From NCBI GenBank assembly GCA_016202645.1, contig JACQOF010000022.1, positions 1-35,675 on the forward strand: DNA of 35,675 nucleotides. The letters are read 5' to 3'. The DNA comes from a bacterium. GTDB lineage: Bacteria; Lindowbacteria; 2-12-FULL-62-27. How positions within the stretch are numbered: position 1 is the first letter of the stretch; every line of letters begins with the position of its first letter. Under the pieces are notes generated by a model. The model did no database searches, was not told the origin of the DNA, and saw only the letters and a program-made list of their open reading frames with translations. Positions 28,178-35,675 of this stretch are shown piece after piece. Both the position numbers and the translations under genes were made by a program.

Positions 28178-29191
28178 TCAGATTCCCTTCCAAGCCCGTT
28201 CGATTTTTTCCCGGAGCCGGCGACGGGCGGGGTCATCGCAGAACGCCGCGTCAACGGCGCGGCGCGCGGCGGCCGCCATCTGCGCGCATGTCAGGCCGCA
28301 CCGCCGGACCGCCGCCTCGTATTCGTGGCTGAGCGTGATGCCCGACACGCCCGGATCGTCGGAATTGACCGTGACACCGATACCTGTATTTGCGAGGTCC
28401 TTCAAGGGATGAAGCTCCAAAGTTTTGGCGAGGCAGGTCTGGACATTGGAGGTGGGGCATATCTCCAGCGGGATGCGGCGGCTCCGCAGAAGATCCAGCA
28501 CCGCGCCGTCCTCGAGGCTCCGGATGCCGTGCCCGATCCGGACCGCGCCAAGACGCTCGACGGCTTCCCGGACATTTTCCGCGCCGCCGGCTTCGCCCGC
28601 GTGGACGGTCACGGGGATGCGGTACTTGCGGGCAAGATCAAACGCGCGATAATGCGGTTCGGCTGGATACCGGCTTTCGTCTCCGGCCAGGTCCACGCCG
28701 ACCACGCCGGACCGGCGGTACCGTTTTGCAAGCTCGACGGTTTCGATCGAGCTGGCGGGCGATTCCGAGCGGTAACAGCAGAGGATGATCCGCGCGTCGA
28801 TCCCGAATTTTTTCCGGCCGCGCTGGATCCCCCGGATGGCGGCTTCGACGACCTGCTTCATCGTAAACCCGGCCCGGGCCTGCAGGGCCGGCGCGAAGCG
28901 CGCTTCGAGATACACCACGTTGTCCTTCGCGGCGTCCTCGCAGATTTCACAGGCGATGCGCTCGACGGCCTCCGGGCTTTTGAGAAATTCGTAGAAGAAA
29001 AAAAACTTTTCGAGAAAATCCCCGAGGCTCCGGCAGTCCGGGCCGACCTGGCAGTAGGCCTTGAGTTTTCGGAGGTCCCGGGTGGGCAGGCGAAATCCGC
29101 CGGAGACGGCCAGGTCCCGGAGGGTCGATACGCGCACGGACCCGTCCAGATGCCGGTGAAGATCAACCTTGGGAAGAGACCTGAAATTCAA
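28178..29191 (-). CDS. add: Adenosine deaminase (or adenine/aminofutalosine deaminase-like)
   Basis: Metal-dependent amidohydrolase that hydrolyses (deoxy)adenosine to (deoxy)inosine, 337 aa. The zinc ligands and catalytic residues are present: His12/His14 in DLHRHLDGS, His197 and Glu200 in HAGE, His221 in GHGI and Asp278/Asp279 in SDDP. I read the start as TTG at 29191 because the conserved strand begins at residue 6; no clear Shine-Dalgarno precedes it, and a palindromic element lies just upstream. Adenine or aminofutalosine deaminase cannot be excluded from the family alone, but the salvage context supports adenosine. Confidence 0.92.
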   Translation of the reverse strand: MNFRSLPKVDLHRHLDGSVRVSTLRDLAVSGGFRLPTRDLRKLKAYCQVGPDCRSLGDFLEKFFFFYEFLKSPEAVERIACEICEDAAKDNVVYLEARFAPALQARAGFTMKQVVEAAIRGIQRGRKKFGIDARIILCCYRSESPASSIETVELAKRYRRSGVVGVDLAGDESRYPAEPHYRAFDLARKYRIPVTVHAGEAGGAENVREAVERLGAVRIGHGIRSLEDGAVLDLLRSRRIPLEICPTSNVQTCLAKTLELHPLKDLANTGIGVTVNSDDPGVSGITLSHEYEAAVRRCGLTCAQMAAAARRAVDAAFCDDPARRRLREKIERAWKGI

Positions 29192-29300: not shown

Positions 29301-30209
29301 TCACCGGGACTTTTTTTTTCCCTTGGCGGGCGCCTTCGGCGGAAAATATTTGTCGATCAAAAAGGAAAGCCGGGCCCGGGTCTTGCCGGGGAAAAGGTCA
29401 GGCTGTGTGACGATGGCATTCGACAGGGCCGAATGGCAGGCGCAGGTTTCGTTCATCCGCTTCGCCAGCCGCGACACGGCGGTTTTGACGATGCGTTTGG
29501 CGTTTTCCGCGTTTTTCAACAGAGTCCGCACCACCATGTCGGCGGTGACGGAGTCGTGGCCCTCGTACCAGCAGTCGTAGTCGGTCGGGAGAGCGCAGAT
29601 CGCATAGCAGATCTCGGCTTCCCGCGCGAGTTTCGCTTCGGGAAGCGCCGTCATCCCGATGATGGACGCGCCCCAAGAGCGGTAGAGATGGGACTCGGCT
29701 TTGGTCGAAAACAGCGGGCCTTCCATGCAGACGTACGTGCCCTTCGGGTGGACGTTCAGCTTCAGGGACTGGACCGACTCGCGCAGGACGCCGGAGACGG
29801 AAGGGCAGAACGGTTCCGCGAACGCGACGTGGGCGACGATGCCGTCGCCGAAAAAGGAGTTGACCCGGCTTTTGGTCCGGTCGATGATCTGGTCGGGAAT
29901 CACCATGTCCTTGCCGGGAACGATCTCCTCGCGGAGGGACCCGACGGCGGACATCGAGAGGATCCACCGGACGCCGACTGATTTCAACGCGTAGATGTTC
30001 GCGCGGGAATTGACTTCCGTCGGCAGGATCCGGTGCCCCCGTCCGTGCCGGGGCAAAAACGCGACCCGCGCGCCCGCCAGTTTCCCGACGACGATCTTGT
30101 CGGACGGCTCGCCAAACGGCGTGTCGACGGAAATTTCCTGCAAACCTTCGACTCCCTCCATATCATAAATTCCGCTTCCCCCAATTACGCCTATCGTCGG
30201 TTCAGTCAT
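29301..30209 (-). CDS. mtnP: S-methyl-5'-thioadenosine phosphorylase
   Basis: Phosphorylase of the PNP/MTAP family II, 302 aa, which splits methylthioadenosine (or related purine nucleosides) with phosphate to free adenine and methylthioribose-1-phosphate. The sequence shows IGVIGGSGIYDMEG (phosphate loop), FLPRHGRGHRILPTEVNSRANI, CMEGPLFSTKAES, GMTALPEAKLAREAEICYA and TDYDCWYEGH, the usual MTAP order. The start is the ATG at 30209 with a GTGAGGAC Shine-Dalgarno; an in-frame ATG 10 codons upstream lies inside the neighbour's end. The C-terminal KAPAKGKKKSR is a basic tail. Four bases separate it from DUF3006. Confidence 0.95.
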   Translation of the reverse strand: MTEPTIGVIGGSGIYDMEGVEGLQEISVDTPFGEPSDKIVVGKLAGARVAFLPRHGRGHRILPTEVNSRANIYALKSVGVRWILSMSAVGSLREEIVPGKDMVIPDQIIDRTKSRVNSFFGDGIVAHVAFAEPFCPSVSGVLRESVQSLKLNVHPKGTYVCMEGPLFSTKAESHLYRSWGASIIGMTALPEAKLAREAEICYAICALPTDYDCWYEGHDSVTADMVVRTLLKNAENAKRIVKTAVSRLAKRMNETCACHSALSNAIVTQPDLFPGKTRARLSFLIDKYFPPKAPAKGKKKSR

Positions 30210-30213
30210 GTCC

Positions 30214-30447
30214 TCACCGGGTTCCTTTCTTTTTTCCATCTTTCAAGTGCTTTCCAGCCAGAAGGTCCGCCTGGAGTTTTGCGATATCAGACTTGCGCTT
30301 GGCCGTTTCCTTTTCGTCTCCCCGGATATCGATTGTCAGACCCTCCCGGGCGCCGGCGATGTATTTCGCGGGGATTTCGATCTGCCCGCCGTCGTCGAAC
30401 TCGATCACGGCGATGCCTTCCTCGATGCGGTCAATGACGCCTTTCAT
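30214..30447 (-). CDS. DUF3006 family protein
   Basis: A 77-aa protein. The first 45 residues match the small beta-barrel DUF3006 pattern (KGVIDRIEEGIAVIEFDDGGQIEIPAKYI) and the rest is a charged helix with a lysine-rich end. DUF3006 proteins are uncharacterised and are found beside nucleases, ComEC-like proteins and others in Gram-positives. The ATG overlaps the recJ stop (ATGA), pointing to coupling with the nuclease. The start at 30447 is fixed by that overlap. Confidence 0.82.
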   Translation of the reverse strand: MKGVIDRIEEGIAVIEFDDGGQIEIPAKYIAGAREGLTIDIRGDEKETAKRKSDIAKLQADLLAGKHLKDGKKKGTR

Positions 30448-32741
30448 GAGACGGTGGCCCCTTTCGATAGTCGGATGTCCTCCAAGACCAGCTGGAGGTC
30501 GGTTCGGCCGCGCCATTCGTTTTTGGAAAGTTCGAACACGGCGTCGATCCGGCCGCGCAGGTCGTCCGCGCGGGCGCCCATGCTCCATCCGACAGCGGTC
30601 ACGCCCCGGCGGGCGTCCTTGCCGATCTTCAGGCGCAGGTGCTGCTGCGCGTCGCCCATGCGGCGGACTTCGGCGAGAGGCGCGTCGAACAGGCCGAATT
30701 TCGGAAAGGGATTGCCCTTGCCGAAGGGTTCGAGGATCGCTATGTCTTCGAGGGTCTCGATGGTGAGAGATTCGGCCGACAGCTCGGCCTCGATGTCGAT
30801 CGAAGGCTGAGGCATGACGTGGAGCCGGGCGGCGGTTTCTTTTTTTAGACGTTCGAAAAACGCCGGGATGTTGTCGGGATGGACCGTGACGCCGACGGCC
30901 TGGTGGTGCCCGCCGTACTTGACCAGAAGGTCCGCGCAGGGATCGACGACTTCGAGGAGATTGAGGGATTCGACCGACCGGCCTGTGCCGACGCCCATGC
31001 CGTCTTCGACGAGGATGATCATGATGGGCCGGCCGTAGGCGTTCTTGATCCGGGAGGCGATGATGCCCGTCACGCCGTGCGGGACGCCCTCGACGGAAAG
31101 ACAGAGGATGCGGTCGCGCGCGAGGTCGTTTTGCAGGGGGACGAGGTCGTTCAGCCGGCCGAAATTATTTTTGACGAGTGCTTTGCGCTCCTCGTTCATC
31201 CGGACCAGGTCTTCGGCGAGTTTCTCCGCGGCTTTGGAATCCGACACGGTCAGGAGGTTCAGAGCGGGCCGCGCGTCGCCAAGCCTGCCGGGCGCGTTGA
31301 GGAGCGGTCCGAGGAGAAACGCGAGGTCCTTGCCGTTCGGCGCTGGAAGCTCCAGGCGTTCGAGTAGTTTTTTAAGTCCGAGCGGCGGGGAGTCCTTGAG
31401 AAGGCGCAGACCCTCGGCGACGATGGCCCGGTTTTCGCCCGTGAGGGGCATCATGTCGGCGACGGCGGCGAGGGCCGCAAGCGGGATGAAACGGTCATAG
31501 AACAGATTCTGTTCGACGTCCTGCCGGTCGAGGAGATGATAAAAAATATCGGCGGCGGCCTGCGCGTCCGGCAGGGCGCGGTGGGCATCCGTGAGTTCAA
31601 TCTCCAGTTCCGCCGCGACGCCGCCGAGGGTGCGGCTCGAAAGGCCGGGCAGGGACGTCAACGCGAGGGTCATGACGTCTTCGACCGGATGTTCGAGTTT
31701 GACGTTGAGATTGCGCGCCAGTTCCGCCGCGAGAAATCCGCGGTCGAACCCGACATTGTATCCGACCAGGATCGTCCCGGGCTCGGCGATGAACTCCTGG
31801 AAATTCCGCAGGGTCTCGCGGCGGTCGAGGCCCTGTTCCCCGAGAAGCTCGTTTGTGATCCCGGTGATCCTGCGGATTTCGTCCGGGATCGGCCCGGACG
31901 GTTTCAGGAGACGGGAAAATTCGGCGGTCTTGACGCCGTTGCGGTATTTCACCGCGCCGATCTCGATGACTTCGTGGACGTCCTTCGAAAGACCCGTCGT
32001 CTCGACGTCCAGAAACACCAGGGGACGGTCGGCGTATGGGGACTTCGACGCGAACAGCGCCATCGCAAGCTTGAACGCGACGCCGGCGCCGGACAGATGC
32101 TTGAACGGATACGGCTCGCCGGGAATGCCCGGATGCAGGATCGCGCAGGCGGCCGGAATGGTTTCCTTGTGCTGGTGATGGTCGGCGATGATGACGTCCA
32201 TCCCGCCGGCGTTGGCTTCGGCCACACGGTCGATTTCGCAGATGCCGGTGTCGACCGTGATTCCCAGCGTATACCCGTCGGCGAGCGCGCGCCCCATCAC
32301 GTCCGGATGCACGCCGTATCCTTCGCCGCCCAGCGGGATGTGGCTGTCGACGGATGCGCCGAATGCCTGGAGAGCAATGCGGAGGATGGCGGTGCCGGAA
32401 ACCCCGTCGACGTCGCGGTCGCCGAAGATGAATATTTTTTCTTTGGCGTCGATCGCGCGGCGGATCCGCGCGACGGCCTTCTCCATCTGGCTGAAAAGAT
32501 GCGGCCGGAAAAGCTGGGAACGGGAGGGATTGAGAAACGGGCTCACGTCTTCCGGCGACCGGACTCCGCGGTTGACGAGCATTCGGGCGATGAGGGGGCT
32601 CATTTCGAATTCATCCATCAGACGCCGTTCGGCCGCGGGATCGCCCGGCGCCACGCGCCAGACGGCTTCCGGAGGAGAAGCGGTCAGGCCGTTCGCATCG
32701 GTTTGACCGTCGATGCCGGGTTCTACTTCAAGATTTGCCAT
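30444..32741 (-). CDS. recJ: RecJ exonuclease with inserted DnaQ-type exonuclease domain
   Basis: A 765-aa protein. RecJ motifs frame it: GDRDVDG (107-113, normally DYDADG), TVDTG (162-166), DHH (187-189), ADMMPLTGENR (429-438), LGPLLNAPGRLGDA (477-490) and GGHHQAVG (610-617). Between the DHH half and the ADMMPL segment sits a complete DEDDh 3'-5' exonuclease domain, residues about 238-405, with D245 and E247 in LDVETTG, D333 in GYNVGFDRGF, H387 and D392 in HRALPDAQ. RecJ degrades single-stranded DNA 5'-3' in recombination and repair; the insert should give 3'-5' activity. The ATG has AAGGA upstream and overlaps deoA by 19 bases. Confidence 0.92.
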   Translation of the reverse strand: MANLEVEPGIDGQTDANGLTASPPEAVWRVAPGDPAAERRLMDEFEMSPLIARMLVNRGVRSPEDVSPFLNPSRSQLFRPHLFSQMEKAVARIRRAIDAKEKIFIFGDRDVDGVSGTAILRIALQAFGASVDSHIPLGGEGYGVHPDVMGRALADGYTLGITVDTGICEIDRVAEANAGGMDVIIADHHQHKETIPAACAILHPGIPGEPYPFKHLSGAGVAFKLAMALFASKSPYADRPLVFLDVETTGLSKDVHEVIEIGAVKYRNGVKTAEFSRLLKPSGPIPDEIRRITGITNELLGEQGLDRRETLRNFQEFIAEPGTILVGYNVGFDRGFLAAELARNLNVKLEHPVEDVMTLALTSLPGLSSRTLGGVAAELEIELTDAHRALPDAQAAADIFYHLLDRQDVEQNLFYDRFIPLAALAAVADMMPLTGENRAIVAEGLRLLKDSPPLGLKKLLERLELPAPNGKDLAFLLGPLLNAPGRLGDARPALNLLTVSDSKAAEKLAEDLVRMNEERKALVKNNFGRLNDLVPLQNDLARDRILCLSVEGVPHGVTGIIASRIKNAYGRPIMIILVEDGMGVGTGRSVESLNLLEVVDPCADLLVKYGGHHQAVGVTVHPDNIPAFFERLKKETAARLHVMPQPSIDIEAELSAESLTIETLEDIAILEPFGKGNPFPKFGLFDAPLAEVRRMGDAQQHLRLKIGKDARRGVTAVGWSMGARADDLRGRIDAVFELSKNEWRGRTDLQLVLEDIRLSKGATVS

Positions 32742-34030
32742 ATCAATTTCCTTTTTTTCGGCTGGCCCGCGCCGATTTTCAGGGCGCCGAGATATCGCTC
32801 GCGAGCGGGGGGGAGGCGGGAGGCGTCATTGGCGTAGAGATACGCGAGGGTCTCTCCCTTTTTGACCCGGTCTCCGACTTTTTTGGCGAGCAGAATTCCG
32901 GCTGCCGGATCGATGACGTCTTCGGAACGCGTCCGGCCGGCGCCCAGCATCAGCGACGCGACGCCAACGTCCCGGGCGGCCAGTTTCTGGATGGTTCCCG
33001 TGCGGGGTGACTTGACGGCCTCAACATATTTGGACGCCGGCAAACCGCCGGACTGGCCGATCACGCGGGCGTCCCCGCCCTGCGCCTCGACCATCTCGGC
33101 GAATTTCCGTTTCGCACGGCCGTCCGACAGCGCCGCCGCGATGGCCTTCCGGCCGTCCGCCGCGGATTTGGTTTTGCCGGCGAGCCGGAGCATTTCGCCG
33201 CCGAAGACCACCACGAGTTCGCGCAAATCAGCCGGGCCGGCGCCGGACAGGCAGTCAATCGTCTCGCGGATTTCCAGGGCGTTCCCGACCGCCAAGCCCA
33301 GAGGCTGGTCCATGTCGGTGATGAACGCCACCGCCTCGCGCCCCGCCTCCCTGCAGATGCCCAGCATCTCCACGGCCAGGCGCTTCGAGTCGGCCATCTC
33401 GCGCATGAAGGCGCCGTCGCCGGTCTTGACGTCGAGCACGAGCGATTCCGGGCCGGCCGCCAGTTTTTTCGAAAGGATGCTGGCGGCGATCAGCGGGATG
33501 CAGTCGACGGTGGCGGTCACGTCCCTGAGGGAATACATTTTTTTGTCGGCGGGCGCGATTCGGTCGGTCTGGCCGATGATCGCGCAGCCGACCCGGTCGA
33601 GCACGCCGAGAAATTCCTCCTTCGTGAGCCGAGTCCGGAACCCGGGAATCGACTCGAGCTTATCGAGGGTCCCGCCGGTGTGGCCGAGGCCCCGGCCGGA
33701 CATCATCGGCACCGGTACCCCGAAGGCGGCCACGGCGGGCGCGAGCGGAAGGGACACTTTGTCGCCGACGCCGCCGGTGGAGTGCTTGTCGGCGGTGCGG
33801 ACTTTGAAGCGGCCGCGCAGGTCGAGGGACTCGCCGGAGTCCATCATCGATTGGGTGAGGGCGGCGGTCTCGGTTTTGTCCATTCCGCGAAAGTAGACCG
33901 CCATGAGGAAGGCCGACATCTGGTAGTCCGGGAGGCCGCCGCGGGTGTAGCTGTCGACGAGAAAGCGGATCTCGTCCGGCGTGAGGCGGCCGCCGTTGCG
34001 TTTTTTGAAAATCAGTTCGTACGGAATCAA
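32723..34030 (-). CDS. deoA: Pyrimidine-nucleoside/thymidine phosphorylase
   Basis: Phosphorylase of the thymidine/pyrimidine family, 435 aa, which releases thymine or uracil and (deoxy)ribose-1-phosphate. Conserved segments are KKRNGGRLTPDEI, DKHSTGGVGDKVSLPLAP, the signature SGRGLGHTGGTLDKLESIPG, and SLRDVTATVDCIPLIAASILSKK and DVKTGDGAF. The start is a TTG at 34030 overlapping the PNP stop as TTGA, which matches the family's usual first residues; the frame is open further upstream inside the PNP gene. Whether it prefers thymidine or also uridine cannot be told, so deoA versus pdp is open. Confidence 0.94.
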   Translation of the reverse strand: MIPYELIFKKRNGGRLTPDEIRFLVDSYTRGGLPDYQMSAFLMAVYFRGMDKTETAALTQSMMDSGESLDLRGRFKVRTADKHSTGGVGDKVSLPLAPAVAAFGVPVPMMSGRGLGHTGGTLDKLESIPGFRTRLTKEEFLGVLDRVGCAIIGQTDRIAPADKKMYSLRDVTATVDCIPLIAASILSKKLAAGPESLVLDVKTGDGAFMREMADSKRLAVEMLGICREAGREAVAFITDMDQPLGLAVGNALEIRETIDCLSGAGPADLRELVVVFGGEMLRLAGKTKSAADGRKAIAAALSDGRAKRKFAEMVEAQGGDARVIGQSGGLPASKYVEAVKSPRTGTIQKLAARDVGVASLMLGAGRTRSEDVIDPAAGILLAKKVGDRVKKGETLAYLYANDASRLPPARERYLGALKIGAGQPKKRKLIWQILK

Positions 34031-34881
34031 ACGGGTTTCGGTACGTCGGACCAGAGGGATTTTTTGCGGAAGATTTCCAGCAGGATTTCCTTGACGAGGC
34101 CTTGGAAAACCTTTCCCACGCGCGCGGCGGTCTCGATGACTTCCTTGTGGGACAGCGCCTCCTTCGAAACGCCGGCGGCGAGGTTCGACACGCAGGAAAT
34201 CCCGAGGCACCGCATGCCCATGTGGCGGCCGGCCTGAATTTCCGGGACGGTCGACATCCCGACCGTGTCCGCGCCGAGGGTCCGGAGCATCCGGATTTCG
34301 GCGGGGGTCTCGTAGCTCGGGCCGGGACAGGCGGCGTAGACTCCTTCGTGAAGATGGATCTTGAGTTTTTTGCCGGCCGAGTGCGCGAGCGCCAGAAGAT
34401 CCGGATCGTAGGCGCGGCTCATGTCGTAGAACCGCGGGCCGAGCCTGTCCGGGTTTTGCCCGCGGAGGGGATGGTCGCCGAGAAAATTGAGGTGGTCCCG
34501 GATGAGGACGAGATCGCCGGGCTTGTAGGATTTGTTGATGCCGCCGACGGCGTTCGACGTGATGAGGACGTTCGCTCCGAGAAGTTTCATGAGCTGGATG
34601 CCGAAGACGACTTTCGACATCGGATGGCCTTCGTAATAGTGCACCCGGCCCTGCATGGCCACCAGCGGAAGGCCGGAAAGATTTCCGAAAACGAGATTGC
34701 CGGCGTGGCCGGCGACCCGCGCATGCGGGAAATCGGGAATGTCGCGGTAGGGGACCGCGCGGCGTTGATCGAAGGAATCGGCGAGATCGCCGAGACCCGA
34801 CCCGAGGACCAGCGCGACTTTGGGCTCGAAAGATTTCACAACCCGCCGGAGAAACTTGAGGGCGGTCAGGTGCTCAATCAT
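34027..34881 (-). CDS. Purine nucleoside phosphorylase
   Basis: Trimeric-type purine nucleoside phosphorylase (PNP-I, punA/deoD-like), 284 aa, which splits inosine or guanosine with phosphate. Phosphate loop GSGLG (27-31), GRVHYYEGHPM, LITSNAVGGIN and the signature GVYAACPGPSYETPAEIRMLRTLGADTVGMSTVPE are all intact. It is the first gene of the salvage cluster and overlaps deoA by four bases. The 114 bases upstream carry the second copy of the palindromic repeat. Confidence 0.95.
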   Translation of the reverse strand: MIEHLTALKFLRRVVKSFEPKVALVLGSGLGDLADSFDQRRAVPYRDIPDFPHARVAGHAGNLVFGNLSGLPLVAMQGRVHYYEGHPMSKVVFGIQLMKLLGANVLITSNAVGGINKSYKPGDLVLIRDHLNFLGDHPLRGQNPDRLGPRFYDMSRAYDPDLLALAHSAGKKLKIHLHEGVYAACPGPSYETPAEIRMLRTLGADTVGMSTVPEIQAGRHMGMRCLGISCVSNLAAGVSKEALSHKEVIETAARVGKVFQGLVKEILLEIFRKKSLWSDVPKPV

Positions 34882-34995: not shown

Positions 34996-35675
34996 TCACG
35001 AGGCCAGCGCCATGACGGAGGTGTCGGGGGGTCGGGCGGTCAAACCGGAGAACCAGCGGGCAAGAAACATTCCGGTGTGCGAGTGGGGGTGGCGGGCGAG
35101 GTCGCGGGCAGGGCCCGCGAAAACCAGTTCGCCGCCGCGGTCGCCGCCTTCCGGGCCGAGATCGATGACCCAGTCGGCGTTGCCGATGACGTCGAGATTG
35201 TGCTCGATGACGACGACGGTGTTGCCGGCCGAAACCAGCCGCCGCAGGACTTTCACGAGCTGTTCCACGTCCGCGAAGTGCAGGCCGGTGGTCGGCTCGT
35301 CCAGAAGATACATCGTGCTCTGGGTCTCGGGCCGGCCCAGCTCCGCGGCAAGCTTCACGCGCTGGGCTTCGCCGCCCGAAAGGGTCGTCGCGCTCTGGCC
35401 GAGCCGGAGATACCCGAGGCCGACGTCCTTGAGTAGCTTGAGCCGCCGCATGATCTGCGGGTGGCGGGCGAAAAACCGGTAGGCTTCGTCGATCGGCATG
35501 TCCAGAACGTCGGCGATGTTTTTGTCATGATATTTGATGTCGAGGGTGGCCGAATTGTACCGGCGGCCCTGACAGGCGTCGCACCGGACGTAGAGGTCGG
35601 CGAGAAACTGCATTTCGATCCGGATCATTCCGTCGCCCTCGCACCGCTCACAGCGGCCGCCGGAAACATTGAAGC
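34996..35675 (-). CDS. uvrA: UvrA excinuclease ATPase, C-terminal part (partial)
   Basis: The C-terminal 226 residues of UvrA; the gene runs off the right edge, so the start is not visible. The UvrA zinc finger ([14 protein letters not shown] then CDACQGRRY) is followed by the ABC signature [17 protein letters not shown], Walker [17 protein letters not shown], the H-loop [24 protein letters not shown] and the usual last stretch. UvrA loads UvrB at damaged DNA in nucleotide excision repair. The end is slightly longer than the standard GGE...G ending, with [13 protein letters not shown]. It is 114 bases upstream of the salvage cluster, on the same strand. Confidence 0.96.

Follow-up and report, generated by a model that had tools for sequence, protein, structure and literature searches.

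The window analysed here is the whole 35,675-nt stretch, a contig of a metagenome-assembled genome (MAG) from the Lindowbacteria. Towards its right-hand end lies a row of genes in the order punA-deoA-recJ-DUF3006-mtnP-add, all on the minus strand. The recJ gene, here called recJ-exo, carries a second nuclease domain. The features are as follows:

28178..29191, minus strand: add, adenosine deaminase
29301..30239, minus strand: mtnP-like S-methyl-5'-thioadenosine phosphorylase
30214..30450, minus strand: small DUF3006 gene flanked by recJ, whose stop it overlaps, and mtnP
30444..32741, minus strand: recJ-exo gene, 765 aa (ORF, Pfam, TIGR00644)
30477..30794, minus strand: RecJ_OB domain, residues 650–755 (Pfam)
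30837..31109, minus strand: DHHA1 domain with GGHHQAVG, residues 545–635 (Pfam, motif alignment)
31446..31463, minus strand: RecJ motif IV VADMMP, residues 427–432 (motif alignment)
31512..32048, minus strand: insert with linkers, residues ~232–410 (RecJ alignment breakpoints, predicted structure)
31542..32018, minus strand: DEDDh exonuclease (RNase_T), residues 242–400 (Pfam)
31566..31583, minus strand: Exo III, H387 to D392 (alignment)
31743..31745, minus strand: Exo II, D333 (alignment)
32001..32009, minus strand: Exo I, D245 and E247 (DVE; alignment)
32061..32438, minus strand: DHH domain, N-terminal part, residues 102–227 (Pfam PF01368)
32175..32183, minus strand: RecJ motif III DHH, residues 187–189 (motif alignment)
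32403..32420, minus strand: RecJ motif I DRDVDG, residues 108–113; clade signature D[RKS]DxDG (motif alignment)
32723..34036, minus strand: deoA, pyrimidine-nucleoside phosphorylase, with a 19-nt overlap with the recJ start; the deoA start codon is provisional
34027..34881, minus strand: punA, purine-nucleoside phosphorylase

A C-terminal fragment of uvrA (34996–35628) lies at the contig end upstream of punA, and uvrA is likewise placed in two relatives (L036, L037).

The recJ-exo gene translates from an ATG start into 765 aa without interruption of the frame. The DHH, RNase_T, DHHA1 and RecJ_OB domains of the protein each exceed their Pfam cut-offs, and the NCBIfam recJ equivalog model TIGR00644 assigns it to RecJ with 475.4 bits (cut-off 396.9). 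The catalytic RecJ motifs (GDRDVDG, TVDTGI, DHH, VADMMP and GGHHQAVG) are complete, and the claim of an earlier note on this DNA, that the RecJ motifs are undamaged on either side of the insert, is borne out by the presence of DRDVDG, DHH, VADMMP and GGHHQAVG. In motif I an arginine replaces the usual tyrosine of DYDxDG, with the aspartates kept. The inserted domain matches RNase_T (PF00929) at residues 242–400 with 97.4 bits (gathering cut-off 24); a chance match is implausible given the E-value of 1.8e-27 and a common insertion site across many lineages. Searches with phmmer against solved RecJs gave two aligned blocks, 24–233 and 416–760, the gap being the insert, and residues 232–407 matched the PolC exonuclease 2p1j as well as DnaQ and DinG exonucleases. 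The insertion point follows the GAGVAFKLA helix, which itself comes after the DHH motif, and precedes the helix of motif IV (VADMMP); canonical RecJs carry 6–20 residues at this place. The same note had placed the insert between the DHH motif III and ADMMPL (motif IV), and RecJ alignments break exactly there. The five catalytic residues it named (D245, E247, D333, H387 and D392) are as claimed and are invariant across the five homologues first aligned; about 10 families, with identities as low as ~33%, conserve all five. Within Lindowbacteria the insert evolves a little faster than the RecJ part of the protein (55% versus 65% identity). The window ORF is confirmed as a full-length RecJ bearing a complete DEDDh exonuclease.

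An AlphaFold2 model built on a 26-sequence alignment had a mean pLDDT of 91.6 and a pTM of 0.90, with pLDDT values of about 84–97 in the insert. The closest counterparts of its parts were S. aureus RecJ 8y30 for the whole model (Z 42.5, 552 residues, 1.9 Å), the S. aureus DinG exonuclease for residues 238–410 (Z 24.6, 1.4 Å) and S. thermophilus DnaQ (8h18) for the insert (Z 24.4). The insert superposes on DinG and DnaQ exonucleases at 1.4–1.9 Å over ~169 residues. Structure prediction had been suggested as a check on whether the insert folds separately, and the model predicts just this, a separately folded DnaQ-type domain within the RecJ fold.

The same gene, at 61–63% identity and with shared synteny, was found in two other Lindowbacteria MAGs. 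A RecJ with a DEDDh insert is also present in Brevinematales, and 16 of the 198 genomes in a Spirochaetota sample carry the architecture; in one of the 16 the DHH site is dead. A domain-wide sample of 386 genomes adds G406, G266 and the families f118 (G410, G270, G538) and f152 (G565, G439, G304). Families are designated here by the codes of the genome search (f1, f18 and so on); the contig scan used two RecJ-flank patterns and is not a census. The architecture recurs in Lindowbacteria, Brevinematales, Spirochaetota and further lineages, and recJ-exo is therefore an old, distributed protein family and not a peculiarity of one MAG. The f179 proteins (540 aa, with a central RNase_T domain) were left out of the clade, as a RecJ origin was without support in profile comparison. 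Two of them (L216:900-2519 and L220:1389-3017) have a central DEDDh domain with unassigned flanks and are possibly further decayed RecJ-exo proteins. Candidates G498, G015 and G360 (N-terminal exonuclease, DinG-like), G079 and G083 are other fusions, in which no RecJ part was found. Other proteins with a DnaQ-type domain were seen at L202:31-2244, L203:2320-4506, L215, L218 and L219; they combine, with partners judged by eye, an N-terminal exonuclease with a CBS-like part, a sensor-kinase-like part with a C-terminal exonuclease, or a DinG-like part with an N-terminal one.

In a RecJ tree calculated with the insert columns removed, proteins with an intact or eroded insert separated from canonical RecJs, except for the long-branch row L206, and removal of long-branch and redundant rows gave a clean split (SH-aLRT 95.6). 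Motif I reads D[R/K/S]DxDG throughout this insert-bearing and eroded-insert clade. Canonical RecJs have DYDxDG in 71/71 cases from genome contigs; among about 30 from genome samples the lone exception is the long-branch second RecJ of G020 (DPDVDG). The oddity pointed out earlier, DRDVDG where DYDADG would be expected, is thus real and is a marker of the clade that leaves the metal-binding aspartates unchanged. A tree of the exonuclease domain (188 columns, some rows incomplete) gave weak support on single versus multiple origin; a single origin of the insert would be favoured by the RecJ tree, by the insertion site that the members share and by their motif I signature.

Members of the clade occur in three active-site states. 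Both sites are intact in Lindowbacteria, f18, f80, f87, f91, f79, f70, f232, f114 and f118, and likewise in the more divergent f152. The insert-bearing copy is the only RecJ found in these genomes except in f152, where a canonical RecJ accompanies a strongly diverged insert-bearing copy. In the second state, seen in many Spirochaetota, the RecJ site is kept while the insert has shrunk to 111–187 residues and lost the DEDDh residues. Homology of eroded inserts was detected by profile comparison (hhalign) for f64/89/98/99 (probability 85) and f67 (probability 90); hhalign detected none for the shortest (f61/81, f65/76 and f59), which are termed eroded on the basis of position and clade. In the third state, represented by G092 (f82) and G020/G363 (f19), DEDDh is intact and the DHH motifs are lost, with flanks that profile comparison still finds to be RecJ-derived (probability 94–99); a second RecJ, of canonical type, is present in G020 and G092. 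RecJ-derived proteins with dead DHH and intact DEDDh, adjoining punA or deoA, were observed at L034:424-2202, L217:559-2316 and L204:1856-4012. Judged by motif content, each active site persists in some lineages, and in others it is separable from its partner.

The neighbours of recJ also distinguish the clade. Of ~45 clade genomes, 24 (14 family codes) have punA and/or deoA as direct same-strand neighbours of recJ, versus 0/104 loci with a canonical recJ, of which 100 had at least 1 kb of sequence on one side and 60 at least 900 bases on both. Both dead-DHH families (f19 and f82) are among the genomes with this adjacency; it was not seen in clade families f18, f80, f87, f91, f67, f81, f65, f76 and f59. 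Because the clade may have inherited the linkage from its ancestor, the counts are not independent events. Since the linkage persists across lineages, including copies that retain only DEDDh, it would argue, as circumstantial evidence, for a function shared with punA and deoA.

We propose, with a probability of about 0.5, that the recJ-exo protein is a two-polarity single-strand exonuclease that works with nucleoside salvage and, as the only RecJ of the cell, also serves repair. The RecJ part is catalytically complete and is a predicted 5'-3' single-strand exonuclease, and the DnaQ/DinG-type DEDDh domain in the loop that joins DHH motifs III and IV is predicted to act 3'-5'; this dual polarity is a prediction from family membership. 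One polypeptide, its two sites presumably cooperating, would then degrade single strands starting at either end and release 5'-mononucleotides. The main selected role in Lindowbacteria is probably the conversion of single-stranded nucleic acid to nucleotides for salvage, because recJ sits in an operon-like, presumably co-transcribed row with nucleoside phosphorylases. That the products of strand digestion would feed these phosphorylases is, we infer, the most economical reading of the neighbourhood. A profile search of the window genome returned no second recJ above the cut-off (the genome is 82% complete, so a second copy could be missing), and as the only RecJ found, recJ-exo probably also does ordinary RecJ repair work. 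Against a need for the exonuclease in the salvage setting, many spirochaetes with a dead insert site keep recJ beside deoA, so the exonuclease is dispensable in that context. ExoVII is a two-polarity single-strand nuclease and is also present alongside recJ-exo, so two-polarity digestion is not unique to the recJ-exo protein. A role for recJ-exo as a substitute for ExoVII was ruled out, as xseA is present in 40/42 genomes tested and absent only in f67.

The protein could instead serve mainly in DNA repair, as an all-in-one excision nuclease able to act from either side of a nick in mismatch repair or end processing, an explanation that we regard as unlikely yet deserving serious attention. RecJ is a mismatch-repair and recombination nuclease, most genomes with an insert-bearing copy yielded no other RecJ, and a uvrA fragment lies at the window end. 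The phenotype of a Borrelia recJ mutant is in keeping with such a role, as it includes non-templated changes that the authors of the study relate to mismatch repair (PMC2779866). However, ExoVII could supply both polarities in 40/42 genomes, leaving no obvious gap, and the punA/deoA linkage, retained by DHH-dead copies, points elsewhere, towards the salvage role preferred here.

It is improbable that the insert is a non-catalytic module for substrate binding or structure, in which the conserved residues reflect history. Several spirochaete groups, with inserts of 111–187 aa, did lose the DEDDh residues and keep the RecJ site, but about 10 deeply diverged families conserve all five residues, among them lineages whose DHH site is dead.

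Of similarly low probability is a function of the insert, in some lineages, as a Pol III proofreading exonuclease housed in RecJ. Its support comes from Spirochaetota. In 12/13 genomes of f18, f80, f87, f91 and f70 no RNase_T domain was found outside the insert, the exception being G148, in which a standalone RNase_T is also present. In f18, f80, f87 and f91, recJ is followed by holB (Pol III delta'), within about 13 nt of the insert-bearing recJ except in f18, where one gene intervenes. Positions of holB were noted at L251:1592-2800, L252:4649-5803, L253:3726-4958, L255:4855-6018, L256:2-1024 and L040:7900-9081, and a gene for an aspartate/ornithine carbamoyltransferase precedes recJ in f18, f80 and f87. 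The PHP metal site of DnaE is degenerate in the two f91 genomes (G132 and G125; dnaE at L238 and L239), judged against the corresponding site of E. coli DnaE, and an RNase_T profile search found no standalone DnaQ in the f91 genomes. Across Spirochaetota, a standalone RNase_T is present in 3/16 genomes with an intact insert versus 114/181 others (Fisher p 0.0009, hand-counted and ignoring phylogeny). This complementarity of insert and standalone DnaQ is suggestive only, and some Spirochaetota families lack both. According to a 2026 survey, some bacteria that have an inactive PHP site and lack a canonical DnaQ may rely on non-canonical proofreaders (PMC12926913), and in f91, perhaps also in f18, f80 and f87, the DEDDh domain within RecJ might conceivably be the replicative proofreader, a non-canonical epsilon in a repair nuclease. 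On the other side, the PHP site is intact in most other insert-bearing spirochaetes examined, and proofreading by the insert is unlikely in the window genome because the PHP motifs are intact there and a separate DnaQ-like protein is present.

Although the window is a MAG contig, an assembly or frame artefact fusing two genes can be dismissed with near certainty, as recJ-exo recurs in other MAGs and many genomes, once within a single contig (G073), and has an open frame without interruption and a high-confidence fold.

Full-text searches of open-licence literature turned up no account of a DnaQ-type exonuclease embedded in RecJ; the architecture may already be on record in domain databases. 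In the passages searched, a RecJ phylogenomics study (PMC3307487), a survey of the RNase H-like superfamily (PMC3985635) and the Borrelia recJ report (PMC2779866) do not mention an embedded exonuclease. The parts are already known and analogous embeddings exist (PolC, exonuclease-DinG and Cas2-DEDDh), and within the literature searched it is the combination in RecJ that is new. RecJ-exo defines a RecJ subfamily that spans several lineages and unites in a single chain two complete nuclease sites with predicted opposite polarities, and natural variants that lack one of these sites tell the two functions apart. The linkage to nucleoside phosphorylases connects a known repair nuclease with nucleic-acid salvage, and some spirochaete RecJ-exo proteins are concrete candidates for the non-canonical proofreaders proposed in PMC12926913.

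Compared with bacterial RecJ (Thermus 2zxr, Deinococcus 5f55 and S. aureus 8y30), recJ-exo shares the DHH, DHHA1 and OB domains, all motifs and the fold, but has an extra DEDDh domain of ~180 residues between motifs III and IV, R/K/S in place of Y in motif I, and punA/deoA neighbours. DnaQ-like exonucleases (Pol III epsilon, the PolC exonuclease 2p1j and S. thermophilus DnaQ 8h18) have the fold (Z 22–24) and the five catalytic residues in common with the insert; theirs is free or part of a polymerase, whereas that of recJ-exo is embedded in RecJ. S. aureus DinG (8zef, 9ii8; PMC12345164), which gave the best rmsd to the insert (1.4 Å), is also a DnaQ-type exonuclease fused to a DNA-processing enzyme, but its exonuclease is N-terminal to a helicase, while that of recJ-exo is an insertion into a second nuclease domain. 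In PolC the DEDDh exonuclease is likewise inserted inside another domain, PHP (PMC3919608), the host protein there being a polymerase. The Cas2-DEDDh trimmer-integrase (8fy9) similarly joins DEDDh to an unrelated nucleic-acid enzyme, but does so as a tandem fusion and in CRISPR adaptation.
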